A DNA stretch of 64,000 nucleotides from Tetraselmis striata (Eukaryota; Chlorophyta; Chlorodendrophyceae; Chlorodendrales; Chlorodendraceae): assembly GCA_006384855.1 (NCBI GenBank), contig VCJN01000600.1, forward strand, positions 1-64,000. Direction: 5' to 3'. Numbering within the stretch: the stretch's first letter is position 1; the number at the start of each line of letters is the position of its first letter. A program made the translations under genes and the position numbers. The notes beneath the pieces are model-generated. The model had not been told where the DNA came from and did no database searches. It was given only the letters and a program-made list of their open reading frames with translations. This document shows, one piece after another, positions 42,990 to 61,211 of this stretch.

Positions 42990-43878
42990 GATGCTGCGTC
43001 TATCGGACATGGTATCAGCTGCATATCTTGTTTCCTGCAGGCATGCAATCGCGGGTTTTTGTATGCTTGGTTTTGGTAGCTTGTTGAAACCCGGGGCAGT
43101 TATGGACTGTCTGATTTTTAGACTGTGCACGCCGTGTCGGTGTAGCTGAGTACCACCAAATCACTTTCTATCAAGTAAAGTGTGACTGCTATTTGACGGC
43201 TGCATAGCTATGAACATGCACTGCGTGTTCAGGCGTCCTCATCAGGCTTGTTATATTGCTAGCGTGGCGTGGTATATATCATCTTGCTGCAGTCTTGCAG
43301 TATCCAAGTGGTGCCAGCAGTGCTGCGTTGGCATGCACGCTTGTTGTGGTAGAGTGATGCTTTGTTTCGTGATCAATTGGTAAGGCCATATTCTCCACAC
43401 AGGATGCCAAAGAAGCAATTTATGGGGAGTCTGTGAGCCGCTGCTCTATTGAAACATTGTTCAGCAAGCTGGACTGTCGTAAAGGGTCACGCCCCTTGCG
43501 TGACGCCCCGTTACGCGTGCACTCCTTCTCGCGAGCGCCGATGAGAATCCTGCTCTCGGTGAACAAATAGCGACAACTTGCAGGCGTATGGTCAATGGCT
43601 TGGACCGCTGGTCGACTCGGAGCCGTCCGCGCTGCTCGGCAGCAGGGCGGTTGTACGAACGATGACGGGATGGTTCGGGATGGATAAGAGCACACCGAAT
43701 TTGCCATACTGTATTTGCCGGTGTATATATATCTCGTGAGTTCGTAACGGTAGGGAGACAGTTGGCCGAACGACACCTGTAGCAACCGATTTCAAACTTC
43801 CGTACTTAATGTAGTCTTCAAGGTGTCATCATCAGCAGAATATGTAATATTCGTTTAGTGACTACCCGTACCGGTAGC

Positions 43879-43905
43879 TACCCTTTTTGTAATTCACACC
43901 GGTAG
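43879..43905 (+). repeat. Dispersed repeat R1, short copy
   Basis: CCCTTTTTGTAATTCACACC with flanking TA and GGTAG; matches the other R1 copies. Confidence 0.65.
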
Positions 43906-43997
43906 CTACGGTACCCATACCGCCGACAGCACAGCAGCGCAGTGGGCAGCTCATCGCTATTTGCCGCGAATGCTACCCCGTATTAATAAGAGCACTA

Positions 43998-44100
43998 TTC
44001 TCATGTTACTGCTTCCACCCCGCAGTCGCTGTAGAGGACCTTTCTGATTGCCTTTTATTTTAGTGATTTCCGATATCGCCCTCTGCTGCTAGCTCATGTA
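43998..44100 (+). repeat. Copy of the repeat tail at 38172-38274
   Basis: 103 bases with two mismatches to 38172-38274, starting inside the former ORF end; a truncated copy of the same repeat family. Confidence 0.8.
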
Positions 44101-45042
44101 GTCGCTAATTACTTAATGAGAGCACTATCACAGGCACGGTTCCAGGAGTCCGGAAGTCTTCGTACCTACAGTAGTCCATGGACTAGTAACCTGTTCGTAC
44201 GCTGTATATTTTAAATCGCTAGGGGGCCACCGCGAAGCCACCGCCCAAATACCAGTAACTCCGCCCCGCCCGGGACAGGAATGGCAACAATGACAACAGC
44301 AACAGCAATATACAAGGTATTTACCTTGCTTAGTTGTCCGCTCGGTACAGCGGTGGTCTCTTATCCAAGAGGTTACAGCTAATATATGTTGGCAAGACCT
44401 ACGAGGCTACGACTGCAGTTTGTGCAAGAGGTCAAGGGTAAGGCTGGGGCAGCTTCGGCCGATGACCCGGGGCGAACTTTAGTTTTACGTTTGAACATTA
44501 GTGACTCGCCGCCCTAGGCAGTTTCGATTGAATGTTTTGTTTTACACCCCCCGTCAACCCTCACAGTAATTATGAGTAGAACATGCCCATTGCTACAAAA
44601 AACTGTCATTATTATATATGACTTTTTGAACTATATGCAAGTGCATGGCCGTATGCAGAAGGGTATTCCATGCCATATGCAAGCATAAAACGGAGATGAG
44701 GTGGGGCAAGCAGTTTCTGGAAGCATGACCATATCACAATCAATTGCATCATGGCAACCCAACCATCTAGTAAGTGGCCCTATCCATCCCTCCATGTAGC
44801 TATCATGATGTTGTTGATGCTACTTGTTCCTATTGATGTTGTTGTTGTTGTGACTGCTGCTTTGACCTGTTGCGCAACGATGCTTCCCTATCCAACTCAT
44901 CTAGCTTCTCGGCACATTCTCCCTTCCCGCCCCTCACAATCACCTTGTAACCCTCATCATCACATGCTTTGCACATTTAAGGGCAGAAACTTACTGATGT
45001 AGTATAGACACTAAGTATGTGCCTGTACAAACCGGGGCAGCC

Positions 45043-45994
45043 TGAACGCGAACCTAAGTCACTACAGGCACCTCTCAGACGCCTATAGGGCTTTAGTTCA
45101 GACCAGCGTTGCTGGTCTTGCCCGTACTCAGGGGGGTGAATGCCAGTGGCAATGAAGCCTCTCACCACAGGTCACTGCCACGCCGTGCAGTACTTTATGC
45201 AGTGCTGGTCGCGGCTATCAACCGTTCCTACAGTACTTTACGTCGGTACCGGGTCGAATGGTGACAACCCAGCACCACCAGCAGCGCGCGCGCACGATGC
45301 AGCGGGCAGCACGCGTGCGACCGTACGACAAGCACGCAGGCTACCGTGATTACCTTTGGCCCTCGTTCCTCAAGCCGATCTCCGTCTCTTACACCGTCTC
45401 CGTCCCGTACACAGGCTCTTGCCTATGCCTGTCATAGGCAAACACAGGCACACACAGGCAAGACAAGGGGGAAGAGGGACCGCTAGAAGGCGGAGGCCCT
45501 CTATAAGCACGCGATCGCGGCCATGGCAAGGCAGCCGCACGTCACGCTAAGTGCTAATAGCACGCGCGCCGTGCGCGCACCGCGCGCCAGACGCATTACG
45601 CACTGCCCTTGTCTAATTGTACTCATCAAGTCCTATACTACTACTCGGCTGCGGCTACAGTGAGTCTTGCGCCTTGTACCAGCAGCAGTACAGTACTTCG
45701 TCTTCTGCAGGTAGTCCACCTTAGGGGTCCCTGTTAGAGGTCCCGATTAGAGGTGCTATCTGAGTTCCCTTAGAAGTCCCGCCTAGGTGTGCTTGGGCGG
45801 GTCTCTGATCTCCGGCATGTATGTCTCCTTGCGCCTCGCTCAGGGCTATGGCCAGGGTATGGAACCCTAACCAATCAGGTGCCCTGCCTGTGGTCTCAAC
45901 CGGGTATGGAACCCTAGCTTTAACCCTAGCCGGCCCGGAAGGGCTTGGCTGTCCCGTTCTTCACGCGCACGCGGATATGACGGATGCTGCGGCA
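45043..45994 (-). repeat. 3' LTR of element C
   Basis: 952 bases, TG...CA, offset exactly 17200 from the right copy with one difference noticed. Confidence 0.9.
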
Positions 45995-46117
45995 GCTGCC
46001 GTCGCATGCTCGCATTCCCGCGTGGGGCGCTGTCACCAGCTCAATGGGCGGCCCATCCCCCCCCCCCAGACGGTTGGTCGCCAGAAGGGTGAACGGCCGC
46101 TGGGCGCCAATCGACGC

Positions 46118-49100
46118 TCAGTGATGCTGGTCGCCAGCGCACGCCTCGGTGTGGAAGTGAATTGACGCCACGGAGTGACGCCACTCAGCTCGCAGTTCTC
46201 GCTCTCGCAGCTCGTTGTCGCGGAAGACCGCGAGCCACAGGGTTGATCGGCGCGTAGTGCGGTTACGCTGCATGTCGCCGGCAATAATGTGGAGCCGCCC
46301 ACAGTCGCCTAGATGCCGTAGCCACTGCATGCGCGGGGAAGGTCCCTGCGCGATGTAGAAGATTGGTACTTGCACGAAAAGGATGTCCGCGCATGACGCC
46401 ATGATTGGCAGCGCCAGATCAAGTAGTTGGAACCACGGGGAGGTCACCACCATGAAAGGGGCCTCTAACCGCGGCTGTGTTGTCATCATCGTTGTCGTCA
46501 TCGTCGTCGTCATCATCGTCGTCATCGCCACAGTTGCGGTTACATCGCGAGCGCACTGGTACACAAAGGATTCCAGCGCGTCCTCGCACATCTCAGTTTG
46601 GTACACCGGATTGAAGTCGTTGTTGATCACTGTCGCACCGCACGGCCGCAAGGCCTCAGCGGTGCTGCCATGTCCCGCCCACGGATCAAAGATTACTCGG
46701 CCGCGCCAGCTGATCACGTTGGCTAGCGCAGCGTACTCGCTCACTTGGTTACTGATTGCCGGTAGATAGTCATTGGCTGCTTGAAGGTTGTTCATCGTTC
46801 TTGTCACAGTTGCTGGGTGCCAGGCGCCAGGCATGCCCCAGTTCAGTCTTGCTGCCACTGCCGCTCTTGTCGGCTGCAAAGGCGGGGCAGGGTCTTGAAT
46901 CTCCTCGTCGCTGTCGTCGTTGTCACTGATTGTTGTGGCGGCTAAAGCCACCGATGTCCACTGTGCCGGCAACGCTGCGTCATCAGCGCTGCACTCCGCA
47001 CACCGCCATGCCCCCCGCGGCACACGTGCCACAGGTGGCTGATGACACAACTTGTGCCAGCCTCGTTCACAGTCTTCGCAGATGATGATCGGGTTGCGCT
47101 GGGTGCTGACGCGCCCGTCGCACTCCTCGCACGCCATATTTGGGTCTTCAAATCCTGCTGGCAACACCACGTATGGAACGGCGCACCGCGCCAGCTCCTC
47201 AACGCGCACGCGCGCCGTGTCGCCGTCAGCTCCTTGGATGACCACCACTCCGTTGTCGTTCACCTCGTAAACCTTGTAGACAGCCGGTCGCACTCGTGGA
47301 TCGAGCGCGTCTTGCTGCCGCTGTTGCACGTAGACGAAGTCGCCGGGGCTGAAGCGTTGCACTCCGGGCGCCACCAACCCCGCGCGCCTCCTGCGATAGC
47401 GCATCACTTCACGATGCTGCGCCGCTTCCACGTTGTGCATCGCCGTCGGCACCATGAGCGCCAAACGCTCCGCGCGCACTGTCATCAGCTCCCACATGCC
47501 CTCCGGGCTGTTGAAGTCCACGGCGCTCTCCTCAAAGAGCGCTCTCGCCTGCGCGGGAAACACGGGTGCCCTGCCGTACACCAACTCGTATGGGCTGTAC
47601 CTGGTGCTGGCTTGCTTGCTGCAACGGTAGCCCAGCTCGATGGAAGGCAGAAAAGTGTCCCACACGACGCGCTTGCCGGGCTGAACCACATAGCGCATCA
47701 GTGCCTCCTTGACTGTTTTCACCATCCCTTCCGCCAACCCATTGGGCTGCGGATGATAGGGCAGCGGCTTCGGATGATCGATGTCATGCTCCACGAGAAG
47801 CTCGTGGAACTCGCCGCTGAACTCGGTACCGCCGTCGGTACACACCTCGCCTGGCGCCGCGAAACGCGCCAGCACTCTCTCTTGAAAGGCTTGTCGTATG
47901 TTGGCTGCCTCCTTGGTGCGCAGCGGCACCAACTCCACCCACTTGCTCGCCGCTTCCACCATCACCAACACCCAGACATTGCGACTGCGGGTGGCCTCAA
48001 AAGGCCCCGCCAAGTCCAAGTGCCAGCGGTAGAACATGCCGAAGTGCGGCAGCGGCTGCATGTCCAGCGGTGAGGCTGCCTTTGGGCGACCGCTGGTGCC
48101 GCCGGGTCGATGTTGCAGCCGATCGCAGTCCGGACACGCCTTCTTGACTCGGGCTACATCCTCCACCATCCCTGGCCAGAAATATGAAGCGGCGATAACA
48201 CTGCGCAGCCGATCCCGCCCCAAATGGCCCATCTTGACATGCACATCCATAATCACCGTGTCTCGCTCACTGGGTGGCGGTACCTCGCGGTGCGTGCCGT
48301 CCTTGTGTAAATACCACAAGATGTTGTTTCTCCATGTATAGCGGGCATAAGGTTGCGGCATGTTGACGTTGCCCGCCTGCAGCTCCGCCATCGCCTCCGC
48401 GTCCATCCACGGATCGCCTCTCCGCGGTCCCGCCGTCAGCTCGCCGGTAACCGCCACCAAGTCGCCGTTGGCCGTGCCCTCATGGGCGGTGTCCAGCACG
48501 CGGCGTCGCGCCCATGCTGACAGCTCCGGCTGCCGGCTGCTCTGAGCCGTTGCGCACCAAAAGGCTGCCGCATGTCGCACGGTGCCCTCCGGTGAAAACT
48601 CACCGCGCCCATCCAGCTCCGTTGGGTCGCCCTCCACGGGCCCCCGACTCAGACAATCTGCGTTGACGTGGTGAGCGCCCTTCCGATAGCGTACCACGAA
48701 GTCGTACTCGCTGAGCCTCATCGCCCACCGCGCCAACTTCCCACGAAGCTGAGCGGTGTTCATCAGCCATTCCAAAGGCCGATGATCTGTCACCACCACA
48801 AACTGCCTGCCAAACAGATAGTATCTGAACTTGTCCATGCCATACAACATGGCAAGACACTCACCCTCATAGCTGGCATAGTTGGGCTCCGCGCCTTGGC
48901 AGGTGCGGCTCGCAAACTCCACCACGTACTCCTGTCCTTCGTCGTCCTCCTGCGCCAACACCGCGCCCAATCCAGCTCCGCTGAAATCGGTGTGCAGGAT
49001 GAAAGGGCGGCTCCAATCCGGATTTCTCAGCACGGGAGCTGAAACCAGGTCTGCCTTGAGCTGCTCGAAGGCTCGTTGCTGCTCCGATCCCCACTCCCAC

Positions 49101-51433
49101 GGCACCTTGCCAGTGAGCTTGGTCAGCGGCTTGCGCTTGACTGCAACTTGCTCGATGAACTTACCGTAGTAGCCCACCATGCCGAGGAAGCGCCGAAGCC
49201 CCGCAACGTCAGTCGGCGGCGGCATCTTCACCACAGCCTCCACCTTGGAGTGCTGCGGGAATACGCCTTCGCCGTCGACCCAATGGCCCAAGAAAGCAAT
49301 CTGCCTCACGGCCATGCGCCCCTTGCCGGGCGCCAGTCTGATGCCCGCCGTTGCGAGCCTCTGAAACACCGTCTCCAAATGCTGAAGGTGCTGCTGAAAC
49401 ACCTCAGCGTCGCTCATCTCGGCTGCGCCTGAAAAGACACAGATGTCATCGGCGTAAACCGCCACGAACGGCAGATCGCCAAGGGCCTCATCCATGACAC
49501 GCTGCCATGCTTGGCTGGCGTTCTTGAAGCCCATCGCCATCCGGCACCACTCATACTGCCGGTCGCTGCCCCAAAAGGCAGTCTTGTGTCGGTCCTCCTC
49601 TGCGATGGGCAGCTGATGAAACGCCGACTTGGCGTCAAACCCGCTGTACATGCGCGCGCCTGCGACCTTGCTGAGTAGCTCGTCTGTCTTGGGCATACAA
49701 TACGCCCACGACTCAGTGACACTGTTCAACGGGCGAGCGTCCAAACACACCCGGATCCCGGTCCAGTTGCCGTCGTCGTCCTTCTTCGGTGGACACACTA
49801 CTGGGATGCTGTAGGGAGATTGGCTCTCGCGGATCGCCCCAGCTGCCAACAGCTCCTTGCACCAGCTGTCCACGAAGTCCCACTCAGTCTTGCTCAATCG
49901 GTACTTGGGTCGCTTGATGGGCTGCGTGTTGGTCGTCGGTATCCTGAACTCCCAGTGGTTGACGGCCGGTAGGTCGCTGACGGACCACACCCACACGTCA
50001 TCCCAAAAGCTGTCGCAGAGCTCCACTAGCTGTTGTTGCTGTGAAGCCTCGCACTCGCGCCCGCACCGCCAGTGTTTCTCAGGATCCTTCAGGCTGCGAA
50101 CATCCTCCACGTGATCATTCATACTTGCCTGCGTGTAGCCACGATTGGCCCACGCAGCAGCGCTACTCCGTTCCGCAGTCCCGCCGCCGTCCGACACGGC
50201 GTTGGCGCCGAAAGCTCGGCGCCCCGCCCTGCTTGTCGCCGTCACCTCGCGGCGGTAGCGCGCGCTCGCGCGCACCATCACTGCCACGAACATGGCTAAC
50301 ACCGTGGTGTTGCCGAGACGACTCGCCTCGCCGAAGTGCATTGACGTGCCGCCCAACCAAATGAGCAGCAGCCAGCAGCATAGCGCCTGTTGACACAGCT
50401 GCTGCCATGCTCTCCCGCAGGATCTCTGCATCCTGCGTTGCTCTTGTCTCTCTCGTTCCGCGCGCTGAGCTGCCTGGGCAGCCCGAGCTGCGCGCTCCAG
50501 CTCCTCCAAGTCCCTCAGTCGCTGCTGCTCCACGAAGAGCTGCCCGACGATCCACGCTACGCTGTGCAGACCCATGGCATTGCCTATGAGGCGCTCATGG
50601 TCCGGCAGCGATATGCCGTGAATTACGTTCGGCTCGTAACCGAAAAGCTCCTCCTTCAGGTGGACAGTGGGCCGTTCCCACTCGCCCGTGTTGATGTTGA
50701 ACAACATGCCGGCCCCCTCGCCGGAATAGGCATCTGAGTCCGATCGCGCCAAGATCGTTGGCAACGCGCGTGGCTGCCCCGGTTTGTTGACGCGAACTCC
50801 GTTGGGTGGCGTCGGCAGATTGACATGCGGCCGTAGGTGCGGTGGCAGCACCTCTCGCAGCAGTCGTGGCTGCATGTCCGCCCGCCTCTCCCACGCCAAC
50901 TTCAGTCTCTCCACGTCCCCCATGTTCGTCCAGAATCGTCGCACTCGGTGATGATTCGCTCCACAGCCCGCCTCATCAATCACGAGCGCTCTCCCGATGA
51001 TCTTCGTGATGTATTTCTCAGACTCTTTGATGTACAGTCTCTCGTCTCCGCTCGTATCCACGTTCTCCAGCAGCCACCCCACGCCGGTGGGCTGCTTCTC
51101 CTCGAGCTTCTCGATGAATGCGGCCACGTGAAAGAGCAAACGTGACCTCCGGTCGCGCAATCCCAGCGCGTTGCGATTGGCTCTGCTCATGCCTGGGCAA
51201 GGCCATCCACACCCCACTATGTCTATGTATGGCAGGCGCCTCACGTCCTCCGTTGTGATCGCCGTGATGTCCTGTGGAAACGAGTCCCACCCCTTGATCG
51301 CGCTAGCTGGTAGTAGATCCGGATATCTCCTACTGAGCTCCTTGAACACGCTGCCCAGCGGCCTTGCGGGCTGCCGGGTCGATGTCCGAATGCCGGTATC
51401 TGGCCACCTTCTGACCGTTGGCCAGCATGGCAT
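46118..51433 (-). CDS. Element C: methyltransferase-RT-RNase H-integrase-PHD-methyltransferase polyprotein
   Basis: A 1771-codon frame. Residues 65-300 are a DNMT3/DRM-like cytosine methyltransferase: GCGWPCPGMSRANR (motif IV, Cys 79), LLENV (VI), HHRVRRFWTN (VIII), LIGNAMG (X). Two hydrophobic stretches follow (about 349-361 and 376-391). RT comes next, with VCLDARPLNS and YADD (660-663). Then follow RNase H (ILHTDFSGAGLGAVL) and integrase: zinc motif GHLGRD...CPDC and core D-D-E (WHLDLAGPF, VCTDGGTEFSG, GLAEGM). After a GPY/F-like stretch comes a PHD finger (CEEC, CEDCERGWHKLC, WRCAEC). The last 190 residues hold FDPWAGHGSTAEAL and VVTSPWF, resembling motifs I and IV of N6-adenine methyltransferases. 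Confidence 0.8.
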   Translation of the reverse strand: MPCWPTVRRWPDTGIRTSTRQPARPLGSVFKELSRRYPDLLPASAIKGWDSFPQDITAITTEDVRRLPYIDIVGCGWPCPGMSRANRNALGLRDRRSRLLFHVAAFIEKLEEKQPTGVGWLLENVDTSGDERLYIKESEKYITKIIGRALVIDEAGCGANHHRVRRFWTNMGDVERLKLAWERRADMQPRLLREVLPPHLRPHVNLPTPPNGVRVNKPGQPRALPTILARSDSDAYSGEGAGMLFNINTGEWERPTVHLKEELFGYEPNVIHGISLPDHERLIGNAMGLHSVAWIVGQLFVEQQRLRDLEELERAARAAQAAQRAERERQEQRRMQRSCGRAWQQLCQQALCCWLLLIWLGGTSMHFGEASRLGNTTVLAMFVAVMVRASARYRREVTATSRAGRRAFGANAVSDGGGTAERSSAAAWANRGYTQASMNDHVEDVRSLKDPEKHWRCGRECEASQQQQLVELCDSFWDDVWVWSVSDLPAVNHWEFRIPTTNTQPIKRPKYRLSKTEWDFVDSWCKELLAAGAIRESQSPYSIPVVCPPKKDDDGNWTGIRVCLDARPLNSVTESWAYCMPKTDELLSKVAGARMYSGFDAKSAFHQLPIAEEDRHKTAFWGSDRQYEWCRMAMGFKNASQAWQRVMDEALGDLPFVAVYADDICVFSGAAEMSDAEVFQQHLQHLETVFQRLATAGIRLAPGKGRMAVRQIAFLGHWVDGEGVFPQHSKVEAVVKMPPPTDVAGLRRFLGMVGYYGKFIEQVAVKRKPLTKLTGKVPWEWGSEQQRAFEQLKADLVSAPVLRNPDWSRPFILHTDFSGAGLGAVLAQEDDEGQEYVVEFASRTCQGAEPNYASYEGECLAMLYGMDKFRYYLFGRQFVVVTDHRPLEWLMNTAQLRGKLARWAMRLSEYDFVVRYRKGAHHVNADCLSRGPVEGDPTELDGRGEFSPEGTVRHAAAFWCATAQSSRQPELSAWARRRVLDTAHEGTANGDLVAVTGELTAGPRRGDPWMDAEAMAELQAGNVNMPQPYARYTWRNNILWYLHKDGTHREVPPPSERDTVIMDVHVKMGHLGRDRLRSVIAASYFWPGMVEDVARVKKACPDCDRLQHRPGGTSGRPKAASPLDMQPLPHFGMFYRWHLDLAGPFEATRSRNVWVLVMVEAASKWVELVPLRTKEAANIRQAFQERVLARFAAPGEVCTDGGTEFSGEFHELLVEHDIDHPKPLPYHPQPNGLAEGMVKTVKEALMRYVVQPGKRVVWDTFLPSIELGYRCSKQASTRYSPYELVYGRAPVFPAQARALFEESAVDFNSPEGMWELMTVRAERLALMVPTAMHNVEAAQHREVMRYRRRRAGLVAPGVQRFSPGDFVYVQQRQQDALDPRVRPAVYKVYEVNDNGVVVIQGADGDTARVRVEELARCAVPYVVLPAGFEDPNMACEECDGRVSTQRNPIIICEDCERGWHKLCHQPPVARVPRGAWRCAECSADDAALPAQWTSVALAATTISDNDDSDEEIQDPAPPLQPTRAAVAARLNWGMPGAWHPATVTRTMNNLQAANDYLPAISNQVSEYAALANVISWRGRVIFDPWAGHGSTAEALRPCGATVINNDFNPVYQTEMCEDALESFVYQCARDVTATVAMTTMMTTTMTTTMMTTQPRLEAPFMVVTSPWFQLLDLALPIMASCADILFVQVPIFYIAQGPSPRMQWLRHLGDCGRLHIIAGDMQRNRTTRRSTLWLAVFRDNELRERELRAEWRHSVASIHFHTEACAGDQHH

Positions 51434-54400
51434 TCAACACGGCAACGTAGCCTCCGCCACATGGCTCGTACAGGCTGATGCCCTCTTCGCGGGTGCTCAG
51501 CCTCGCCAGCCCGTGACGCTGCAGGCTCTGCACCTCCCGCAAAGGCGGTAGGTCTGCCGGCTCGCAGGTCTTGGACTCTTGCACGTCACGCCGTGAGGGT
51601 TCGTGGGCGGCGTGGCTGTGAGACACGTCACTGCCCCCCCCACTCTCCTCCCCCATCTCATCATCGCCGAGCTCCACCCCATGGCAGTAGCTCGCTCTCT
51701 CCACGCGCACCACAGGTTGGTGCTCGCGTACCCGCCGCTCCCACGCCGTTTGACTGAGCAGTGGCACTCTGCCGGCCGGTCGGTTGGGTGCGCGGAAAGT
51801 GCAGATCCTGGTCGCCGGGTCCGGTCGCAGCCCGAGGGCTGTGATGGTGGGTCCACCGAGCAGCAAGCCCGGTGCCTCGCCTCCATTCTCGTACACGCGC
51901 GGTGCGTGATGAGCTGCCATGATTGAGGTGACGGGGTCCCGAAGCGTGAAGACCACGCCATCCCGCAATCGTCGTTGTTGCTCGCATGAGCGCTTGCCAT
52001 TGGCGAGCACCACCACCATGTCGACGTCCACCCACCCGCCAGCGCCCTTCACCACGGCCTCCGCCGCGCTTGGTTCCATCGCTGACGCGTTCATGCGGGT
52101 GTGGCTGCTCCCGCCGTCGGAAATGGTCTCGCACTGCAGCAGGGTATTGTTGGCGTGCAACTCGCACGTGATGGTGTCAAGCCGAGCCGTCTCCGGCTGC
52201 TCCTTCGCCTCAGCCCCCGTGGGCTGAAGGGCAAAAATGCCCTTGTGGGCGACTTCCGCCTGCTGCTCCAGGCAGCGTCGGGTCTCAGACCCTTTGGGCA
52301 GCCGTAGTGCTTGCTCCCTGATGTCTGCCTCAGTGGCACTGCGTCGATAGTCAGTGGCGGGTTCCCACTTGCCGCTGCGGCGACATACTGATGCCTCCTC
52401 AACCGCCGTGCTGGCATTGCGCTGCGCATTTGCACGCTTGCGATCTTCCTCCTCCTCGCGTTGTCTCGCGAGTTGACCTGGCCGGTAAATGGCAAAAGAC
52501 CGTTCAGTCTCAGCCTCTCCGCCAGCGGTCTTCTCCTCCGCGGTAGACTTGCCGCCGCTTTGTTGGTCAGCGACCTCCTCCACCATCATCAGCGCTGCCT
52601 CGAAGGCGCGCTCCCCGCTCGAGGTCCTGGCTGAGTGAGCGTGGCTGCTGATCGGCTCGGTACTCAGGGCACCGCCGCCCCATGCTGTTGCCATGACGCT
52701 CTCCATCATCCCGCCGCCGCTGCGCTCGAGCTGGTAAGCCTCCATCAGGCTGATGGAGACTCGCTTGCTCTCCAGAGCACGCATGACAGCATGCTTCTCC
52801 CAGCCATCCTCCACGGGCTCGTGCTTGACCAGCCGCTTGGCGATCTCCATCAGTGGCATGCGCGGCTGTCCACCGCCGTTGGCCAGTGACACAGGCACCG
52901 TGACGCTCTGAGCTGCGCTGGTAAGCTTCGCCGTCAGCTCTGTACGGCTGTGCATTTGCTGCGCCATCTCCATCGATGGGGTGGTGAAGCCGCGAGGCAG
53001 CCTCCGCTGCCTGGCCTCACGTTCTCCGTCCTCCATGCGCACCGTGTTGACGCCATGGCGTTGAGCCTCCGTGCTCTTACGCTGTGGGCGCAACTGGCTG
53101 GCTGCTGCCAGCCCCACCACCTCGCCCTCCTCGCTGCCGACGACTTGAGCATAGCCGTTGAGCGGCGGGTGCTTGGGTTCGTGGCCGTCTGTCGCCTGCA
53201 GGTTCGCAACGAACTTGCGCAGCTTCCCGCACTCCTCAGTTGTATGGCCCGCATCCTTGCCACACATCATGCACGACTTGCGGTCCGGCTTGGGATTGGT
53301 TGCTGCCATGGCGTTCTCCGGACGGAGATCAGGGTTGGCCTTCCAGCACCGCTTGGCAATGTGGCCCTTCTTGCCACACTCAGAGCACGTCTTGCTCCAC
53401 AGAGGGCAGTCGCTCTTGTAGTGATCTTTCGACCCACAACCATAGCAACCTGCCTCATTGACGTGGCTGCCTCGCCCACCATCATCTCCATCACGGGCGT
53501 AAGCGCTCCTCTCCGTGCGCCCGCCTCCACGATCACCTCCTCCACCTCCACGTCGATGGTAGTTGCCACCCTCTCCGTGGCTGCCTCCACGACCACGGCT
53601 GTTGCTGCCGCGACCGCCACCACGGCTGTTGTGCTCCTCGTGGTCGAAACCCCGCCTGCCGCCTCCGCTCTGGACGCGCGAGTGAGCGCGCATGTGAATG
53701 CTGCCGCGCTCCTGCTTGTCGAGCCACTCAGCCATCTCCCAGGTCCTGTCCACCTGGGTGTCCATCGTGTAGTCCACGAGTTGTTGTTGTGCGAAGTTGA
53801 TGCGGGGGCTGAAACGCGTCTTGCCCCAGGCCCGCTCGATGAACTCCACGTTGACGCGCGATATCTCCACAATGCGTGTCGTCTCCTCGGTGACCAGGTT
53901 CTTGACCCTGGTGTGCGTTAGCAACAGATTGCGGAAATCGCGCACAGTCTCACCAGGCGAGCGATGGCACTTGTTGTACCGCTCCGAATGCAGCTCGATC
54001 TGCTTGGTGATGTTGACGAGCTCCTCCCACATGCCGTCCAACAACCGGCGGTAGTAGTCGAGCCGTTCTGCGCCTTCCAGCCTCCGCGCGATCCTCGAGT
54101 CCTCGTACTTGATGCCCCGGCTGATGAGTGTAGTCTCTAGCGACTCCAAGTACTTTGGCTGAATGCGGCTCCGCAGCACGTGAACCTCGTGGATCTCGTT
54201 GAACGGTCTGTTGCGGTCAAACGCCTGTTGTTGCTCCTTCTCCATGGCACAGTCCGTAGAGTTCTTCCACGTCTCAAACGTGTGCTCTGAGGTCGCCTTC
54301 TCGTGACCCGCCCACAACCTCCCGTTGGAGCCCTTGCCCCTCCGCGGCTCCATCTCATCGTCGCTCATTGCGTCGTCCACAAAGTACGCGTGTCCGTACA

Positions 54401-54662
54401 AAGTGTCTCGCCTAGGGTTGCGTGTTGGCAGCGGGGAAAAGTAGAGCTCGTCCTCGTCGTCTCCGCTGTCCTCTGCTTCGCTGCTGCTGTATGCGTACGC
54501 GTTCTCGTGATCGCACTCCTCACCCTCCTGGTTGGATGCGTCTACGTCGTTCAGCAGCCCCTTCACGATCTCCTCGATCAGCTGGTCTTCCTCCAGCTCG
54601 TCCAGTGCTGCCCACAGGTCGCCCAGGGCAAAGCCGCCCTCTGCGCTTTCCAGCGCGTCCAC
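51330..54662 (-). CDS. Element C: gag, zinc knuckles and protease-like region
   Basis: A 1110-codon frame. An acidic N-terminus is followed by a gag-like helical region (RNLLLTHTRVKNLVTEE), an Arg/Gly-rich stretch and three zinc knuckles (YGCGSKDHYKSDC, CSECGKKGHIAKRC, CMMCGKDAGHTTEEC). Near residue 900 ISDGGSSHTRM could be an aspartic protease site (weak). The last residues, EGISLYEPCGGGYVA and YRHSDIDPAARKA, look like motifs I-II of a DNMT3-like methyltransferase whose other motifs lie at the start of the next frame. The two frames overlap by about 100 bases. Ty3/gypsy elements often link gag and pol by programmed frameshifting. Confidence 0.7.
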   Translation of the reverse strand: MDALESAEGGFALGDLWAALDELEEDQLIEEIVKGLLNDVDASNQEGEECDHENAYAYSSSEAEDSGDDEDELYFSPLPTRNPRRDTLYGHAYFVDDAMSDDEMEPRRGKGSNGRLWAGHEKATSEHTFETWKNSTDCAMEKEQQQAFDRNRPFNEIHEVHVLRSRIQPKYLESLETTLISRGIKYEDSRIARRLEGAERLDYYRRLLDGMWEELVNITKQIELHSERYNKCHRSPGETVRDFRNLLLTHTRVKNLVTEETTRIVEISRVNVEFIERAWGKTRFSPRINFAQQQLVDYTMDTQVDRTWEMAEWLDKQERGSIHMRAHSRVQSGGGRRGFDHEEHNSRGGGRGSNSRGRGGSHGEGGNYHRRGGGGGDRGGGRTERSAYARDGDDGGRGSHVNEAGCYGCGSKDHYKSDCPLWSKTCSECGKKGHIAKRCWKANPDLRPENAMAATNPKPDRKSCMMCGKDAGHTTEECGKLRKFVANLQATDGHEPKHPPLNGYAQVVGSEEGEVVGLAAASQLRPQRKSTEAQRHGVNTVRMEDGEREARQRRLPRGFTTPSMEMAQQMHSRTELTAKLTSAAQSVTVPVSLANGGGQPRMPLMEIAKRLVKHEPVEDGWEKHAVMRALESKRVSISLMEAYQLERSGGGMMESVMATAWGGGALSTEPISSHAHSARTSSGERAFEAALMMVEEVADQQSGGKSTAEEKTAGGEAETERSFAIYRPGQLARQREEEEDRKRANAQRNASTAVEEASVCRRSGKWEPATDYRRSATEADIREQALRLPKGSETRRCLEQQAEVAHKGIFALQPTGAEAKEQPETARLDTITCELHANNTLLQCETISDGGSSHTRMNASAMEPSAAEAVVKGAGGWVDVDMVVVLANGKRSCEQQRRLRDGVVFTLRDPVTSIMAAHHAPRVYENGGEAPGLLLGGPTITALGLRPDPATRICTFRAPNRPAGRVPLLSQTAWERRVREHQPVVRVERASYCHGVELGDDEMGEESGGGSDVSHSHAAHEPSRRDVQESKTCEPADLPPLREVQSLQRHGLARLSTREEGISLYEPCGGGYVAVLNAMLANGQKVARYRHSDIDPAARKAAGQRVQGAQ

Positions 54663-54917
54663 TGGCTGTCGCCCACGCCGGGGCCCTCAAGCTCAGAAGT
54701 GGGGCTGCGTCCACGCGGCCTCAGAAATCTGAGGGCCGCTGCCGCGTCGCTTCGCCGGTGTTGGCGCACACCCGTCTCAAGCCGATACACGAACAGTTCC
54801 AGCGTCCGGTATAACTCAGTGCCGATGAACCTCAGATCCACACCACCGCCACGAAGAGGTTGGCACCGAGCTGAGCCACGCACCCGCCAGCCGTCACCCT
54901 CGCCGGGGCCCTCAGGC

Positions 54918-54922
54918 GGCGA
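54918..54922. repeat. Target-site duplication of element B (left)
   Basis: GGCGA, repeated at 61623-61627 directly after the right LTR. Confidence 0.85.
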
Positions 54923-55333
54923 TGTTAGGCTCTAGCTTAAGCCTGTTCTTTAGGCCCTTTAGGATGCAGCGGAAGGATTTAGAAAGTATGGCCAATCTCT
55001 TCTGGTTACAGGGGTTCCTGGGTTATAGTTCTGTCTCTGAATTCTGCCTAGTAGACTAGTCCGAGGCGGTATTTATACCCGCCGAGGTCATAGTCATACC
55101 TGTGCTATGTTAGCCGGGTGTCATGGGATACCCGTGCTGTGTTAGCCACGTAAGGCTTGAGTCAGAGAACTCTAGAGAATTCCAGAACAGTCCTCGGCCT
55201 TATACTACTAATATTTACGCCCGCAATACTAATATGTACAGCGACTCCGCGGATGCGTAGTCGTACTACCTTTGCGGGGTTATACCTGCTAGTATAGCAG
55301 AACATTATGGCTATAGGGAAATGGAGTATAACA
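54923..55333 (-). repeat. 3' LTR of element B
   Basis: 411 bases, TGTTAG...TAACA, one difference from 61212-61622. Confidence 0.95.
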
Positions 55334-55344
55334 CTCTCTCCCCC
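55334..55344 (-). promoter_or_regulatory. Polypurine tract of element B
   Basis: On the minus strand AAGGGGGAGAG directly abuts the 3' LTR, the normal priming site for plus-strand DNA. Confidence 0.7.
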
Positions 55345-55421
55345 TTAAGCACAAGCGTCCTCGCTGTGCAGGTGTCACAGAACTACAGGAAACTACAGTC
55401 TTGGTCTTGATTTTTTGAAGT

Positions 55422-58400
55422 TCAGGCGGAAGGTACTCGGCTTGGGTAGCGATTCCGGAACCGAATGAAGTCTGGGCTCTCAGTAAACTGTCGGTATGGT
55501 TTAGACAGTAAGAACGACCGGAAAATGTCCAAGTGCTTGACTCCGCGTAGGGGCTCCCAGGTGTCTTCGCTTGGTACGTTGTACGGGAACGCCCATCGCA
55601 CTCGAAACAGTAGTCCAGTGCCATTGTTGTTGAAGGCAACATCGAGTATGTCCTGAACATGGAATCGGTTTGCGTCATGGACAATCGGTACTCGTTCAGA
55701 CTTCGCCGGTTGGTCAGGGTCGTCATACCACTTGTCTAGCATACTCGCGTGCACCACGTCGTGGACTCGTACGCCCGCAGGTAGTTGCAATCGGAAAGCA
55801 ACTGGTGAGATCTGCTCTGTAATGACGAAGGGGCCCACGTAGCGATCGCGTAGCTTAGCACAGGGTTGCTGAATAAACTTCAGATGAGACGCTTTCAGCT
55901 TAACTCTGTCGCCGGTCTTGAATGGTACGGGTAGTCGTTTACGATTAGCTGCAGTCTGCATACGAGTTTGAGCCTCCAGTACGCAATCATGCGCGAAGCG
56001 ATGAACCTCCTGTACATACTTGACGTGTTCCGGAAGAGCTCGAGTCGGCTCGGTTGCGAGTTGAGTAGTAGCAGGTGTAGTCGGCTCGAATCCCAAAGTC
56101 GCCTTGAAAGGGGACATAGTAGTCGAAGTCGACTGAGCAGCGTTGATCGCAAACTCCACGTTGGTGAGGTGGTTGACCCAATCATCGTGCAGGGGGTGCA
56201 CGTAGCAGCGTAGCACTTGCTCCCAAGTTTGGTTAGTGCGTTCCGTCTGGCCATCGGTTGCTGGATGAAAAGCTGTAGAGATGTTCAGCTTAGTACCCAT
56301 GGTCTTGAACATATCTTGCCAGAATTCCGACATAAATCTGGGGTCTCGGTCAGAGATGAGTTTAGCCGGTAGGCCGAAATGACGAAAAACTGAGTGATGC
56401 ATAATCTCCGCCAGGCCTTCAGCAGTAACTGTCTTTGTAGTTGGCTCAACAATTACTCGCTTTGACAGTAGACATACGAAAACCACTACTGAGTCATACC
56501 CCTGGCACTCCGGAAGATCTGTGATTAAATCCAGGGATATTACCTCAAATGGTCGTGACGGTACGTCATGGGGCTGAAGTAAGCCGTATGGCTTATGCCG
56601 GGCCGCCTTAGTACGTTGACAGGTAGGGCAGCGTCGCACGTAGTTAGTGACAGTCTGTTTCATACGGGGCCACCAGTACAGTTCCACAGTACGCGCCAGT
56701 AGTCGTCGTCCTCCTGGGTGTCCAGCAGTAGGCGCGTCATGTAGTTCGTACAGTGCTCGTTGTCGCAGGTCCGCCACATTTGGTACGTAAAGTCGTGAGC
56801 CGTAGGCGTACAGTAGACCATTACTGTGACGTACTAGCCAGGATGGTAAAGCTTTCCGCGATTTCAGGTACTCGTCGGAGTCATATGCGGTCTTGATTTC
56901 GTCGTAAAACTTGTTGTCCGCCTGTAGTCGCGACTCCATAGCAAATAAAACTGAATTTATTTCGCAGTCAGCCTCGTCTTCTGACCAGTTGTTCAGCAGA
57001 TCTAGCTTCTGTAGCGCATCCTTCAAGTCGGGTCGCCGAGAGAGGGCGTCCGCATGATTGGCAGCTCCTCGCTTGTAGACGATGTCCATATGTCGTTGGT
57101 AAGGCGCAAACACTTGCAGCCATCGTACTTGCCGCGTCGACAAATCGCGTTGGCGAAAGAAGTGCCGTAGTGTGTCATGGTCGGTGATGACCGTAAAGCC
57201 CGCCGCTCCATCAAGGTAGCATCGGAACTTGATGAGTGCATCACGAACCGCTAACAACTCTTGCTCATGTACCGGGTAGTGAACTTCGTGTTTGTTCATC
57301 TTGCGTGCATGGTACGCGACAGGTCGAAGTCCTGAGCCTTGATCTTGCAGCAGCACAGCTCCCACTGCAAATCCAGAAGCATCTGTATACAATGTGTAAC
57401 GGGCGTCCGCAGATGTGTCCGGTATACTCAGTACAGGTGCTCGTACCATTGCGTCCTTTAATGCACGAAACGCCGCATCAGCACGAGGCGTCCACACAAA
57501 CTCCGGTTGATTCTTCGTCAGGTCATGTAGTGGCGCCGCAATAGCCGCGAAGTTATGGATGAACTTGCGGTAATAGCCAGCAAGGCCGAGAAAACCTCGT
57601 ACGTCCTTTACTGTCTTCGGCACGGGCCACTGTTGAACTGCTTCCACCTTCCGGGGGTCCATCTTGATCTGTCCTGCTTCGACGATATGGCCCAAAAACT
57701 CCACGCTAGTACCGCCGAACGAACACTTCGACAGCTTGATATGCAAGTGGTGTCGTTGCAACTCCCGTAGCACCAATCTGATGTGCTCGAGATGCTCTTC
57801 AGCTGTCTTGCTGTAGATCAGCACGTCGTCCAGGTATACCACGCAGAATTTGCCGAGATATGGGCTCAAAACACGGTTCATCATAGTCTGGAATCCAGCT
57901 GGGGCGTTTTTCAAGCCGAAAGGTAACACACAGTACTCGTAGAGTCCATAGTGTGTCCGGAACGCTGTTTTGTGGATGTCTTCCGGTTTAATTCGTACTT
58001 GATGGTAGCCTTTGTACAGGTCCAGAGTACTGAAAATAGTCGCACCATGCAATGAGTCCAATAATTCGTCGATGCGAGGAAGCGGGGTCCGGTCTTTCTT
58101 CGTAAGGTCATTCAATTTACGGTAGTCCACACACATACGCAGAGTGCCGTCTTTCTTACGCACAAATAAAATTGGGGCGCCGTAGTTTGACTTGGACGGA
58201 CGAATCCACCCTTTTGCCAACAATTCCTCCAGTTGTGACCGTACCTCCTGCAACTCCGCTGGTGACATACGGTACGTTCGTTCCTTGGGGGGTTCATCAC
58301 TCTCCAGGTTGATCTCAAAGTCGAACTCGCGCTCCGGTGGCAGGTCAGTAGGCTCCGCGATGATGTCTGCAAACTCCATAAGGGACTCCTTGAGCTCCTC

Positions 58401-59702
58401 GGTCCACTCGGTCGACTGGTCCGTGCGCAGCTCAGCTACCGCATCGAACACCTCGCGTACCGCAACAGCAAACAGTTCCTCGCCGCGACTCTTCCTCAGT
58501 TCCTTCGCCATCTTTGCCGCGTCCAGGTGGTAAACCGTCGTAGGTACTGTATACTGTTCCGCTGTAGCAATGTGTTGTCCAGTCTTCCGGTGTTTAATAA
58601 TTTTAGCAGTCCAGTCGATGTCAGGATTAACTGTTTCCAGCCAAGGTTGTCCGAGAATAATGTCGAATTTCTCCAGGTCTGTAACTATAGCGTCCAATTT
58701 ATAGTCGAAAGCTCCTACGGTAAGTACTTCGCTCCTCAGCCGTTTGGTACTGGTACTCATACTGCCGTTCGCCAGTTTTATACGGTGTTTTCCTCCGGAT
58801 ACTGTAGGGCACTGATGCAATTGCACCCATTCGGTACTCGCAAAATTTTCGGTTGCACCAGAGTCCACCAGTATTTTACAGTGTCGTCCTCGCAATTCGC
58901 CAGTAATAGTCAGCAGTCGGGTACCACTCGGTGAAGATACGTTGCACAAACGCGATGTGGAGTTTTCGCCAGGTAGTCGGACGTTACGGTTGACATATTC
59001 ATCAATTTGTTCGCCGAAGCTTTCGTATCGTAGTGGGTAGCGTACTGTCTCCGTCTCCAGATAACCCGTACTTCGTGCCTCCAATAATTTCTTCCAGGTT
59101 GTCCATAGTGCACGGTTCAAAGGGGTCTTCTCAGGTACAGTATTACGACGAGCGCGATACAGGTATACAGGACACCGGTTGTCTCCCGTCCGCTGAGTGC
59201 CGAGGTACCGTAGATTGCTCTCCTGTACCCGGTACCCAGTTTGCTCGAGTAATCGTCGTACTGCTGTTGTCTCCGGCGTCGCGTCCGTGTCGCCGCGCTT
59301 GCCTTCCGGAAACCAAATCAGTCCGCTGTCTTCTACAGTCAGAAGCACTCGTCTTCCATCGGTTACTAGAACCTTCGAGTGCGTCCACTCAGGCTTCGGT
59401 GGGGTTCTCAGGTGCTGCGGTAGAAACCGTACGCCGGCGCCATCGTCAGCGTAGATCTGTGTCGCCCATCGAGTGGGGCCAACATCTTGTCTCGCACCTT
59501 CTATGCCATCGTTCGTTGGGCACGTAAACACAGAAGTCTCCGCTGGCAACTCATCCACCAGACGAAAATTTCTAAGTAGTCGAAACCACGGCTTACGCGA
59601 CCATTTTGGGACCACAATAATTGCTCGTAGATGCGGATGCAATAACTTCTGTCGAAGGTAGTGGCCCAAAAATTCTTCAATTCGGTCATACATACGGGGC
59701 AT
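55422..59702 (-). CDS. Element B: pol with Nudix-like domain, protease, RT, RNase H, integrase, chromodomain
   Basis: A 1426-codon frame. Residues about 108-185 resemble a Nudix hydrolase fold, with FPEGKRGDTDATPETTAVRR and LLEQTGY in the place of the Nudix box. The protease site is KILVDSGATENF. RT has LRMCVDYRKLND, FSTLDLYKGYHQV and VVYLDDVLIYS (catalytic DD). RNase H has LYTDASGFAVGAV. Integrase has the zinc motif (HPGGRR, CPTCQR) and core D-D-E (ISLDLITDLP, LISDRDPRF, DGQTERTNQ). A chromodomain ends the protein (FHVQDILDVAF, LFRVRWAFP, TWEPLRG). Chromodomains bind methylated histone H3 and guide insertion to heterochromatin. Confidence 0.88.
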   Translation of the reverse strand: MPRMYDRIEEFLGHYLRQKLLHPHLRAIIVVPKWSRKPWFRLLRNFRLVDELPAETSVFTCPTNDGIEGARQDVGPTRWATQIYADDGAGVRFLPQHLRTPPKPEWTHSKVLVTDGRRVLLTVEDSGLIWFPEGKRGDTDATPETTAVRRLLEQTGYRVQESNLRYLGTQRTGDNRCPVYLYRARRNTVPEKTPLNRALWTTWKKLLEARSTGYLETETVRYPLRYESFGEQIDEYVNRNVRLPGENSTSRLCNVSSPSGTRLLTITGELRGRHCKILVDSGATENFASTEWVQLHQCPTVSGGKHRIKLANGSMSTSTKRLRSEVLTVGAFDYKLDAIVTDLEKFDIILGQPWLETVNPDIDWTAKIIKHRKTGQHIATAEQYTVPTTVYHLDAAKMAKELRKSRGEELFAVAVREVFDAVAELRTDQSTEWTEELKESLMEFADIIAEPTDLPPEREFDFEINLESDEPPKERTYRMSPAELQEVRSQLEELLAKGWIRPSKSNYGAPILFVRKKDGTLRMCVDYRKLNDLTKKDRTPLPRIDELLDSLHGATIFSTLDLYKGYHQVRIKPEDIHKTAFRTHYGLYEYCVLPFGLKNAPAGFQTMMNRVLSPYLGKFCVVYLDDVLIYSKTAEEHLEHIRLVLRELQRHHLHIKLSKCSFGGTSVEFLGHIVEAGQIKMDPRKVEAVQQWPVPKTVKDVRGFLGLAGYYRKFIHNFAAIAAPLHDLTKNQPEFVWTPRADAAFRALKDAMVRAPVLSIPDTSADARYTLYTDASGFAVGAVLLQDQGSGLRPVAYHARKMNKHEVHYPVHEQELLAVRDALIKFRCYLDGAAGFTVITDHDTLRHFFRQRDLSTRQVRWLQVFAPYQRHMDIVYKRGAANHADALSRRPDLKDALQKLDLLNNWSEDEADCEINSVLFAMESRLQADNKFYDEIKTAYDSDEYLKSRKALPSWLVRHSNGLLYAYGSRLYVPNVADLRQRALYELHDAPTAGHPGGRRLLARTVELYWWPRMKQTVTNYVRRCPTCQRTKAARHKPYGLLQPHDVPSRPFEVISLDLITDLPECQGYDSVVVFVCLLSKRVIVEPTTKTVTAEGLAEIMHHSVFRHFGLPAKLISDRDPRFMSEFWQDMFKTMGTKLNISTAFHPATDGQTERTNQTWEQVLRCYVHPLHDDWVNHLTNVEFAINAAQSTSTTMSPFKATLGFEPTTPATTQLATEPTRALPEHVKYVQEVHRFAHDCVLEAQTRMQTAANRKRLPVPFKTGDRVKLKASHLKFIQQPCAKLRDRYVGPFVITEQISPVAFRLQLPAGVRVHDVVHASMLDKWYDDPDQPAKSERVPIVHDANRFHVQDILDVAFNNNGTGLLFRVRWAFPYNVPSEDTWEPLRGVKHLDIFRSFLLSKPYRQFTESPDFIRFRNRYPSRVPSA

Positions 59703-59871
59703 TTAGCCAAATACGCCGATATTCTCCGAGATCCTGTTCCTGAAATGGGCGCGTCGGACAGCAAAAACTACCAGAAACTTGAGAATTCAGGCCGTCATTA
59801 TCGCAAGCTCCGTCCAGGTCGCAGGGTCCGTATTTCTTCGTGTACTCGTGAAATAATTCGCGATGTACCAT
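59686..59871 (-). other. Dam-like methyltransferase segment of element B
   Basis: A short frame next to the start of pol encodes YGPCDLDGACDND and ending RRIWLNAPY, resembling the D-x-C-A-D and W-x-NPPY motifs of the Dam-type domain carried by many algal and fungal retroelements. The beginning of the pol frame (AIIVVPKWSRKPWF) looks like the continuation of the same domain family. Fossil segment. Confidence 0.4.
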
Positions 59872-60011
59872 CCAGTCGCTGAAATCCTTGTGGAGGAAAT
59901 CAGGCCTCAGTGTCGTTCGAGGATACGAGGGCTGTACTTCTGTAGTCTCGCGAGCCGTTTTAGGGGACAGTCCTTCACCCTGTCGCGCGCCGCGCGCGGC
60001 CGACTCACGTC

Positions 60012-61172
60012 TTAGTTTCCCGGCCGGGTCTTTCTGGGTCGATATTCAGAAATCTTCTTCTTCTTGCTCGGGCGCGCGGACGCAACATGACCTTTCGCCC
60101 TGCAGATAAAGCAGCGACCTTCCTTCTTAAATCTCTCAAACTCCTCCTCGGTCAATCGCCGCGCCATCAACAGGTCGTCTTCTTGTTCTGTAGCTTCACC
60201 CTCAGCACCGCTGTAGTACTGCTCGTCGTCGTCGCCATCGTCGTCCATGATATTCAGGCGCTCGCGACGGATCTCGCGGTGCACATCTGTCTCCCGCTCT
60301 GCAGCTTCAACAGCCAGGGCTGCCTGTACAGCTTCTGCCAGGGTCTTAGGGTTTTTCAGGGCAACCTCCTTTCGAATATGGGGTTTCAGTCCGCGCTGGA
60401 AGTCATGTACATTATCTTCCTCGTGACGATGTGGTAACTCCAGTAGTTGCTCGCGGAAATAATTCGCGTACTTCTGTACTGTAGTCCGCTGTGTCGCGCG
60501 ATCCAGATTGATACGAGCTTGCTTCGCCGGTGTACGTCCACAGAATTCGGTGATTAGTGCCGCCTCCATGTGCGTAATACCGGTAAAACCGCCGCCAATT
60601 TCGTCGTGCGTACTCGCCACTTGCGCGTACCACCACTTGGATACAGGTCCGTGAAAATAGCCAGATGCCCAGTACACGCTACGAGGTTCCTCCGGGTTTA
60701 CATTGTGATATTTCAGGTAACCCCGTGCATGACGAAACCAGTTCCGTAGCTCGTCGATATTCGTAGTCGATAGCTTCTCGATCTTCGCTGGTTTCACATC
60801 GCTCGGCATGAGCCCAGGCATGTCGCTGGTCCGGGCAGAACGAAGCTGGTCTCGCATCTGCTGCTCTACAACTCGGCTCCGGTTCACTCGGTCGTCGAAA
60901 TGACTAAAGCCTTGTCGCACGTACTCGTCCAAGCGGCGAATCTCCGCCGTTGCCGCCGTTGTAGCTTGCGCTACATCTTGCATCCTCGCTTGCTCCGTCG
61001 ACATAGTCTCGACTCGGTCGGCTAGTCGTTGAAGCATGCTCATCATGGTTACGAGGGTCGGTTGCGTGCCCTCTTGACCTCCTTCGAGCGGAATCGGCTG
61101 TGCTTCGCCGGCAGTGGCCGCTACCGGAAAGCTTCCGCTGTCCTCAGGTGGTGTCTCTCCTGGTGTAGCCAT
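60012..61172 (-). CDS. Element B: gag
   Basis: 386 residues. The N-terminal part has a coiled coil (MSMLQRLADRVETMSTEQAR). A Ty3/gypsy capsid core follows: NWFRHARGYLKYHNV, WASGYFHGPVSKWWYAQV, AALITEFCGRTPAKQARINL and VQKYANYFREQLLELPHR. A zinc knuckle-like CFICRAKGHV near the end is followed by a basic tail. It is the first ORF after the 5' LTR, with a leader of about 40 bases. Confidence 0.85.
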   Translation of the reverse strand: MATPGETPPEDSGSFPVAATAGEAQPIPLEGGQEGTQPTLVTMMSMLQRLADRVETMSTEQARMQDVAQATTAATAEIRRLDEYVRQGFSHFDDRVNRSRVVEQQMRDQLRSARTSDMPGLMPSDVKPAKIEKLSTTNIDELRNWFRHARGYLKYHNVNPEEPRSVYWASGYFHGPVSKWWYAQVASTHDEIGGGFTGITHMEAALITEFCGRTPAKQARINLDRATQRTTVQKYANYFREQLLELPHRHEEDNVHDFQRGLKPHIRKEVALKNPKTLAEAVQAALAVEAAERETDVHREIRRERLNIMDDDGDDDEQYYSGAEGEATEQEDDLLMARRLTEEEFERFKKEGRCFICRAKGHVASARPSKKKKISEYRPRKTRPGN

Positions 61173-61195
61173 CTTTACGTCGCTTACCGCTGTCT

Positions 61196-61209
61196 AAGCT
61201 CCGAAACCA
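61196..61209 (-). promoter_or_regulatory. Primer-binding-site-like sequence of element B
   Basis: On the minus strand TTGGTTTCGGAGC follows the 5' LTR after a short spacer; TGG complements a tRNA CCA end. The tRNA is not identified. Confidence 0.5.
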
Positions 61210-61211
61210 AG

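Follow-up and report, generated by a model that had tools for sequence, protein, structure and literature searches.

What does a DNA methyltransferase of the kind that hosts use for silencing do inside the polyprotein of a retrotransposon, and how does an element so equipped multiply? The question is raised by a 64,000-nucleotide stretch of Tetraselmis striata DNA (VCJN01000600.1, contig C470 of the 224-Mb assembly; hereafter the window), where a Ty3/gypsy retrotransposon bearing a predicted DNMT3-like domain occupies 45016-63198, with an ordinary gypsy element inserted within it at 54923-61622. All features of the window described below lie on the minus strand. Taken as a whole, we lean towards the account that this is a recently multiplied T. 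striata family, that it belongs to a methyltransferase-bearing green-algal gypsy clade, and that it propagates by a proposed cycle of self-priming, end-joined circles and integrase action.

An earlier note, made from the sequence alone (the original prediction), had assumed a volvocine host. The host is instead T. striata, a core chlorophyte of the Chlorodendrophyceae, with near-identical proteins present among the T. striata gene models. The range proposed at that time, 46118-54662, covers the coding part correctly but misses the repeats, which lie farther out at 45042-45994 and 62242-63194. A repeat search limited to 43000-58000 yielded no pair of long terminal repeats (LTRs) because the nested gypsy lies between the repeats; they emerged when the whole window was searched.

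A methyltransferase domain in a gypsy polyprotein

The Pol open reading frame (ORF; 46118-51433, 1771 aa) opens with WPCPGMS, LLENV, HHRVRRFW and LIGNAMG, and the Gag ORF (51330-54662), which holds a CCHC zinc knuckle and a protease-like DGGSSH site, closes with ISLYEPCGGG...SDIDP. We take these to be motifs IV, VI, VIII and X, and motif I, of a C5-cytosine methyltransferase (MTase), all five standing in canonical order with motif I in the gag frame. The putative N-terminal part of the domain thereby spans 51333-51548, which by eye lines up collinearly with the uninterrupted MTase of a LINE-like element (L060) of the same genome, and motifs IV-X span 50531-51331 in the pol frame (aa 35-301), with PF00145, profile and PDB matches. 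The PF00145 assignment stands when the gag/pol overlap is read through (24.9 bits), but on the Pol ORF alone it falls just below the curated cutoff of 22 bits (21.9 bits, E 1.3e-4). In a PDB search with the domain, each of the 29 distinct sequences found at an E value of 0.1 or lower was DNMT3A, DNMT3B or DNMT3C (best E 0.001). A profile of seven rows, five of them from copia and LINE-like elements, scored DNMT3A at 61.2 bits (E 8e-16), followed by HaeIII (43.4), DNMT2 (43.2), HhaI (36.9), an entry named just DNA methyltransferase (4onj, 23.4), DRM2 (19.7) and DNMT1 (15.5). The best match among structurally solved MTases is DNMT3. The domain is a predicted DNMT3-like C5-MTase between the protease-like region and the reverse transcriptase (RT), in agreement with the original prediction, whose coordinates and motifs, including the motif I-like residues at the end of the gag frame, proved correct.

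The rest of Pol is organized as in gypsy elements, a Pfam scan giving the gypsy families in the order RT (RVT_1, 49280-49789, E 8.1e-23), RNase H (48704-49093, E 1.4e-34) and integrase (H2C2 zinc domain and DDE core, 47774-48280), followed by a PHD finger C-terminal to the integrase (46991-47131, E 4.2e-6, above the Pfam cutoff). No chromodomain was matched after the integrase by Pfam at E up to 1, the PHD finger standing there instead, and no tyrosine recombinase was matched by Pfam in the Gag and Pol ORFs, where an rve integrase is present instead. The protease was assigned by eye, the Gag ORF giving no Pfam match for it. Between MTase and RT lies a hydrophobic, membrane-like stretch beginning LCQQALCCWLLLIWLGG (Pol aa 346-390, 50264-50398), which is also found in a metagenomic relative, P0005. 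A scan of viral contigs showed no relative.

Pol ends in a further domain (46148-46936) with DPWAGxG, NDxNP and SPWF motifs, the last also seen as SPPF, which is tentatively amino-MTase-like and is kept in some relatives. It had no Pfam or PHROG match, and the best hit of a PDB profile search, a putative modification methylase, was not significant (E 0.37). With 150 of 1003 candidates scored, relatives of this domain (~46%) were detected in many other genomic ORFs of ~230 aa. Regularly spaced matches occur on three contigs, with steps of ~4.01 kb on C2237, of 592 bases on C2346 and of 595 bases on C1116.

Copies, constraint and reading frames

The domain is multi-copy, as anticipated: 43 rows match the pol-frame MTase at 93-100% identity over at least 285 of 333 residues, 38 of them free of in-frame stops there, and these counts are lower bounds, with 121 of 383 candidates scored. 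Older rows at ~65-82% identity also exist, many of which carry stops, those on C2010 and C665 being free of them. In 30 copies inspected closely, the window copy included, the PC, ENV, RxR and GNA motifs are intact throughout, and three have an in-frame stop; the catalytic PC motif is hence kept in genomic copies, as the original prediction would have it. The family has probably multiplied recently in T. striata.

Variants of the pol-frame MTase common to at least two copies comprise three non-synonymous and eight synonymous changes (ratio of non-synonymous to synonymous polymorphism, pN/pS, 0.12), compared with 40 and 26 among singletons (0.50). The corresponding shared and singleton ratios are 0.26 and 0.88 in the upstream gag and 0.45 and 0.75 in the downstream Pol; misaligned stretches that were left unmasked probably inflate the singleton counts of these two regions, and all counts are small. 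As a separate observation, singleton substitutions in the 30 copies, read on the coding strand, include 78 G>A and 38 C>T.

These data bear on whether the MTase may be no more than an inherited component of the polyprotein, structural or vestigial and devoid of any DNA-methylating role. The full retention of motifs in young copies and the low pN/pS of shared variants argue against such a part, as does the de novo CG methylation reported for retrotransposon DNMTs in the accessible sections of a published study (PMC5890265). It would, on the other hand, be congruent with the splitting of the domain across two frames in the window family, and with the base composition of the copies, where the observed-to-expected CpG ratio is 1.00 and C>T changes per kb amount to 1.53 at CG, 2.24 at CHG and 1.16 at CHH, with no methylation-decay signature. 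Absent CpG decay in young copies neither shows nor excludes methylation. All considered, a vestigial MTase appears unlikely to us, and we return to it with the residues kept across the clade.

The manner in which a whole MTase could be produced from two frames is a related matter. Pol is in the +1 frame relative to Gag, and the two overlap by 104 nt (51330-51433), where a +1 frameshift is presumed. From motif I to well into the pol frame, none of the 30 young copies has an indel and the frame relation is kept; among eight older copies it is kept in four, one with a 3-nt insertion, and changed in four. In P0005 (74.6% identity over Pol, 71% in the MTase part) the Pol ORF likewise starts after motif I, and the L060 element has the same MTase stretch in a single frame, by eye gapless and collinear with the two-frame reading. 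A programmed +1 shift would be the simplest reading of the overlap.

Alternatively, the break may be a mutation fixed in the source copy, with no shift and only an N-truncated MTase, from a Pol that starts inside the domain. This would fit with a break common to all near-identical copies examined, with the changed relation in four of the older copies and with the one-frame MTase found elsewhere in the clade, for instance in P0154 and P0163; moreover, no known +1 slip heptamer was recognised at the overlap. Conversely, the overlap persists in the other four older copies, P0005 shares the start of Pol past motif I, the two frames align without gaps to the L060 domain, and Pol would not be made at all without a shift or a re-start. 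A fixed mutation is thus in our view rather unlikely, if somewhat less so than a vestigial domain, and a programmed shift is preferred.

Methyltransferases across a green-algal gypsy clade

A search with the RT-integrase (RT-IN) region, scoring the 7998 candidates that shared most words, recovered relatives from Klebsormidium, Tetrabaena, Gonium, Haematococcus and metagenomes (best 120 of 229 matches). Using a profile of the Tetraselmis MTases and P0005, MTases were detected in many relatives that lack a PF00145 label, with those of Tetrabaena, Gonium and Haematococcus clade members matching over part of the profile length. Two Pol orders occur in the clade, with the MTase either ahead of RT, RNase H and integrase or between RNase H and integrase. 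An RT tree of 107 rows places the 46 MTase-bearing gypsy Pols that it includes, without exception, in one clade of 69 rows (SH-aLRT 99), and none of the 38 rows outside carries an MTase. This tree dropped five MTase-bearing rows with less than 280 aa of RT (P0183, P0186, P0198, P0222 and P0233), as well as the near-copies P0002, P0007 and P0133-P0135. Among the 23 clade rows without a detected MTase, 19 have less than 200 aa upstream of RT, as do six of the 38 outside rows, and MTase absence is uncertain in those rows because the upstream sequence is short. A more careful tree of 55 rows, hand-picked from the 107, supports the clade at 100/99 with 26 MTase rows inside and none among the 23 outside. 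We take a DNMT3-like MTase to be a common part of Pol in this green-algal gypsy clade, in most cases accompanied by a PHD finger C-terminal to the integrase.

The Klebsormidium nitens protein P0190 (KFL_009030040), with its MTase before RT, falls inside the clade in both trees and is presumably a member of the K. nitens Gypsy-Dnmt3 elements described in PMC5890265. In principle, therefore, the arrangement has a described precedent. In the accessible sections of that study, including the legend of its Fig. 4, the K. nitens element likewise has split, DIRS-like repeats, so that it resembles the window element in its Ty3/gypsy domains, the DNMT3-like MTase before RT, the repeats and the RT clade. 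It differs in that Pol is ~35% identical in RT-IN, no PHD match was found in P0190, and no frameshift is known to divide its MTase; target duplication, palindrome and joint scars are not taken up in those sections. For Tetraselmis DNMT elements themselves, no report was found in the open-licence literature, covered as titles and abstract openings.

Conservation within the clade bears again on a vestigial MTase. Of the 43 clade rows covering the catalytic Cys, 42 retain it, and EN is present in 42 of 46, which argues against a vestigial part. In the sub-clade with the MTase between RNase H and integrase, PC is mostly replaced by EC (13 of 18 covering rows), as a domain without a methylating role would permit.

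The window harbors a second, distinct DNMT-bearing Ty3/gypsy element, at 27373-37352, with target duplication ATAT. Its MTase-bearing ORF (30691-32997; PPCQDVS, ENVIPA) has no Pfam match, its PHD match of 20 bits is below the Pfam cutoff of 24, and two relatives of this second element, P0160 and P0174, share 38-39% identity with the first one over RT-IN.

Cytosine MTases are found in other T. striata element types as well. In six Ty1/copia elements (L059, L061, L062, L064, L073 and L074), which represent several families, a C5-MTase lies in one frame N-terminal to RT, with motifs PPC[QA]P[FW]S and ENVxGA in the four inspected over the whole domain, and a LINE-like ORF (L095 plus L060, C2687) combines endonuclease, RT, a PCIF1-like domain, a DNMT3-like MTase and RNase H. 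The latter is a parallel to SymbioLINE-Dnmt of dinoflagellates, which, like SymbioDIRS-Dnmt3, is a retroelement-borne cytosine MTase according to the accessible sections of PMC5890265; both belong to other superfamilies than the gypsy of the window, SymbioDIRS having a tyrosine recombinase. DNMT3s are also mentioned within Copia and DIRS elements in the accessible part of PMC12344493.

Did such elements repeatedly acquire host genes? In the accessible sections of PMC5890265, the K. nitens Gypsy-Dnmt3 is described as a separate, independent acquisition, and by extension gypsy, copia and LINE elements may each have captured host DNMT3 genes several times. Our MTase tree comprises 38 hand-chosen rows, a sample without host DNMT3 sequences, which leaves room for repeated capture, as do the two places of the MTase in gypsy Pol and the failure of gypsy MTases to form one clade in the best tree, the copia and LINE-like MTases nesting among them (95/94). 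A single gypsy clade is nevertheless not rejected (p-AU 0.148), and a gypsy-to-copia transfer is thus not demonstrated. Repeated capture is opposed by the confinement of all MTase-bearing gypsy Pols included to one RT clade, by the broad agreement of the MTase tree with that clade, and by the grouping of retroelement MTases together (100/100) relative to the seven prokaryote-type MTases sampled. Overall, we find repeated capture improbable. Separately, stand-alone 325-aa C5-MTase ORFs were noted on six contigs (L001-L006), of which L001, the only one scanned and placed in a tree, groups with the prokaryote-type MTases.

Split repeats and a proposed route of insertion

The layout of the element is A-coding-B-A-B rather than a plain LTR-internal-LTR structure, with the Pol phylogeny still placing it among gypsy Pols. 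The 5' A repeat (A1, 62242-63194) is LTR-like, starts TGCCGCAG, ends TTCAG and differs from the 3' A repeat (A2, 45042-45994) at one of 953 sites; the same A repeat surrounds other copies. The short repeat B sits before A2, as B1 (45997-46056, 5' limit approximate, ending GCGACGGCA) next to a polypurine tract (PPT; a G run, 46057-46067), and once more after A2, although all that is left of B2 in the window copy is a terminal GGCA, preceded by ~18 nt of other sequence (A2/B2 joint, 45020-45041). A 4-bp target duplication, CATA, flanks the whole (63195-63198 and 45016-45019). The outer part of the 5' untranslated region (61623-62241) extends from A1 to the nested gypsy, which is foreign to the DNMT element and provides a local control, with plain LTRs and a 5-bp duplication, GGCGA. 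The Pol of this nested element (55422-59702) also holds a NUDIX domain (PF00293, E 9.9e-6).

The DNMT element starts TGCCG and ends CGGCA, and the same bases meet at the B1/A2 joint as a 12-nt palindrome, CGGCA-GC-TGCCG (CGGCAGCTGCCG, 45990-46001), with CA-GC-TG as the presumed integrase site. Both ends were inspected in 21 copies, 20 fetched and that of the window, and were resolved in 14, with an exact 4-bp duplication in 13 and agreement at three of four bases in C238. The joint GCGACGGCAGC followed by TGCCG stands upstream of A in all ten 3' A repeats found, that of C2415 not being found. The A2/B2 joint, by comparison, is different in each of the 14 resolved copies, with small deletions and, at the extremes, a filler of ~50-60 nt in C1767 and a loss of ~340 nt in C2011. 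Such variable joints suggest scars of end-joining. The 5' flanks vary among copies, and in the resolved ones they consist of sequence foreign to the element. The irregular copy C311 (L075, L096) retains a left B-A end with an inverted piece of B in front of it, and its A2 is followed by 5' sequence in inverted orientation. An inverted A repeat lies directly past A2 in C1687 (L047), and no 5' end of C2631 was found within the 3.7 kb inspected.

The second element, whose ends are known from one copy only, repeats the plan with A1 at ~36300-37348, A2 at ~27438-28496, B1 at ~28499-28559, B2 at ~27377-27437 and a palindrome GACAATTGTC (CA-AT-TG) at 28493-28502.

An A-coding-B-A-B order is also that of PAT/DIRS-type elements, and the split repeats could stem from a DIRS-like route, or from nested or tandem insertion, rather than from an end-joined circle. 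We know of no target-site duplication in DIRS elements, which use a tyrosine recombinase; the window element has a DDE integrase and 4-bp duplications, with no tyrosine recombinase match by Pfam in its Gag and Pol ORFs. Moreover, a templated DIRS joint should be constant, and here it varies from copy to copy, as do the 5' flanks. A DIRS-like or nested origin therefore seems very unlikely, and circle formation is the reading that we carry forward.

Its first requirement would be priming. A predicted primer binding site (PBS), AGACAAGGGGGAAGAG (62228-62243), of which the first two bases are the last two of A1, is a perfect 16-nt complement of the element's own A repeat at 62661-62676, the presumed 5' end of the RNA, which starts ~30 nt past a TATA-like TTATAG; the longest such match in 2000 shuffles of A was 12. 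The second element has a 22-nt self-complementary PBS region. The pattern may reflect Tf1-type self-priming, in which, by the accessible account of Tf1/Sushi and Tcn1 (PMC6317226), the PBS pairs with the 5' region of the element's own RNA; unlike Tf1/Sushi, the window element has split repeats, an MTase and a PHD finger in place of the chromodomain.

We propose the following cycle. The RNA would begin in A1 and prime its own reverse transcription at the PBS, while a ribosomal +1 shift at the gag-pol overlap would be needed for a whole MTase; being made only in the Gag-Pol fusion, the enzyme would be packaged with RT and integrase. From the positions of PPT and PBS, linear cDNA is expected to end in B-A at either side, of which the left end of C311 may be a remnant, and the variable A2/B2 joints point to an imprecise joining of these ends into a circle. 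The DDE integrase could then open the circle at a palindromic B/A joint, CA-NN-TG, and insert it with a 4-bp duplication. Before or at insertion, the MTase may methylate cytosines of the cDNA, of the circle or of chromatin located by the PHD finger. The integrase of foamy virus offers a precedent in cleaving the palindrome of 2-LTR circles, as stated in the accessible part of PMC1180852; there the palindrome is the circle joint, whereas here it lies inside the repeat (B/A) and the presumed circle joint (A/B) is imprecise. DDE elements with such joints were not found in the same literature search of titles and abstract openings.

Several observations weigh against this account. In each of the 14 resolved copies the opening lies at the B/A joint adjoining the PBS, and in none at that adjoining the PPT, a bias which the circle model does not explain, and seven of the 21 copies inspected (C2631, C1687, C2415, C311, C1431, C2171 and C1995) could not be resolved at both ends. 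The protease-like site reads DGG rather than D(S/T)G. As for the MTase, the constraint test is built on just 11 shared variants, the PC pair is kept in only 21 of 43 covering clade rows, the young copies bear no methylation-decay signature, and the frame relation has been lost in half of the older copies.

A wider proposal is more tentative, and we hold it as possible rather than probable. The whole green-algal lineage of these DDE-integrase retrotransposons, in chlorophytes and a streptophyte, may have end-joined circles with two repeats as its integrating form, opened at a palindromic attachment site that is part of every repeat, with a DNMT3-like enzyme, made only as a Gag-Pol fusion in the family of the window, methylating cDNA or circle prior to insertion, and with the MTase lineage having moved among gypsy, copia and LINE elements as well.

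Retroviral 2-LTR circles are usually regarded as dead ends. The insertion scars of this family point, from sequence evidence, towards circles as the integrating form, with the cut site kept within each repeat, and make the question testable. Furthermore, in place of a handful of odd captures the data now depict a widespread lineage of green-algal gypsy elements with an MTase as common equipment, and the host alga can be cultured. A retrotransposon endowed with a silencing enzyme of host type bears on how such parasites persist, be it by self-silencing, by mimicry or by protection of the cDNA.

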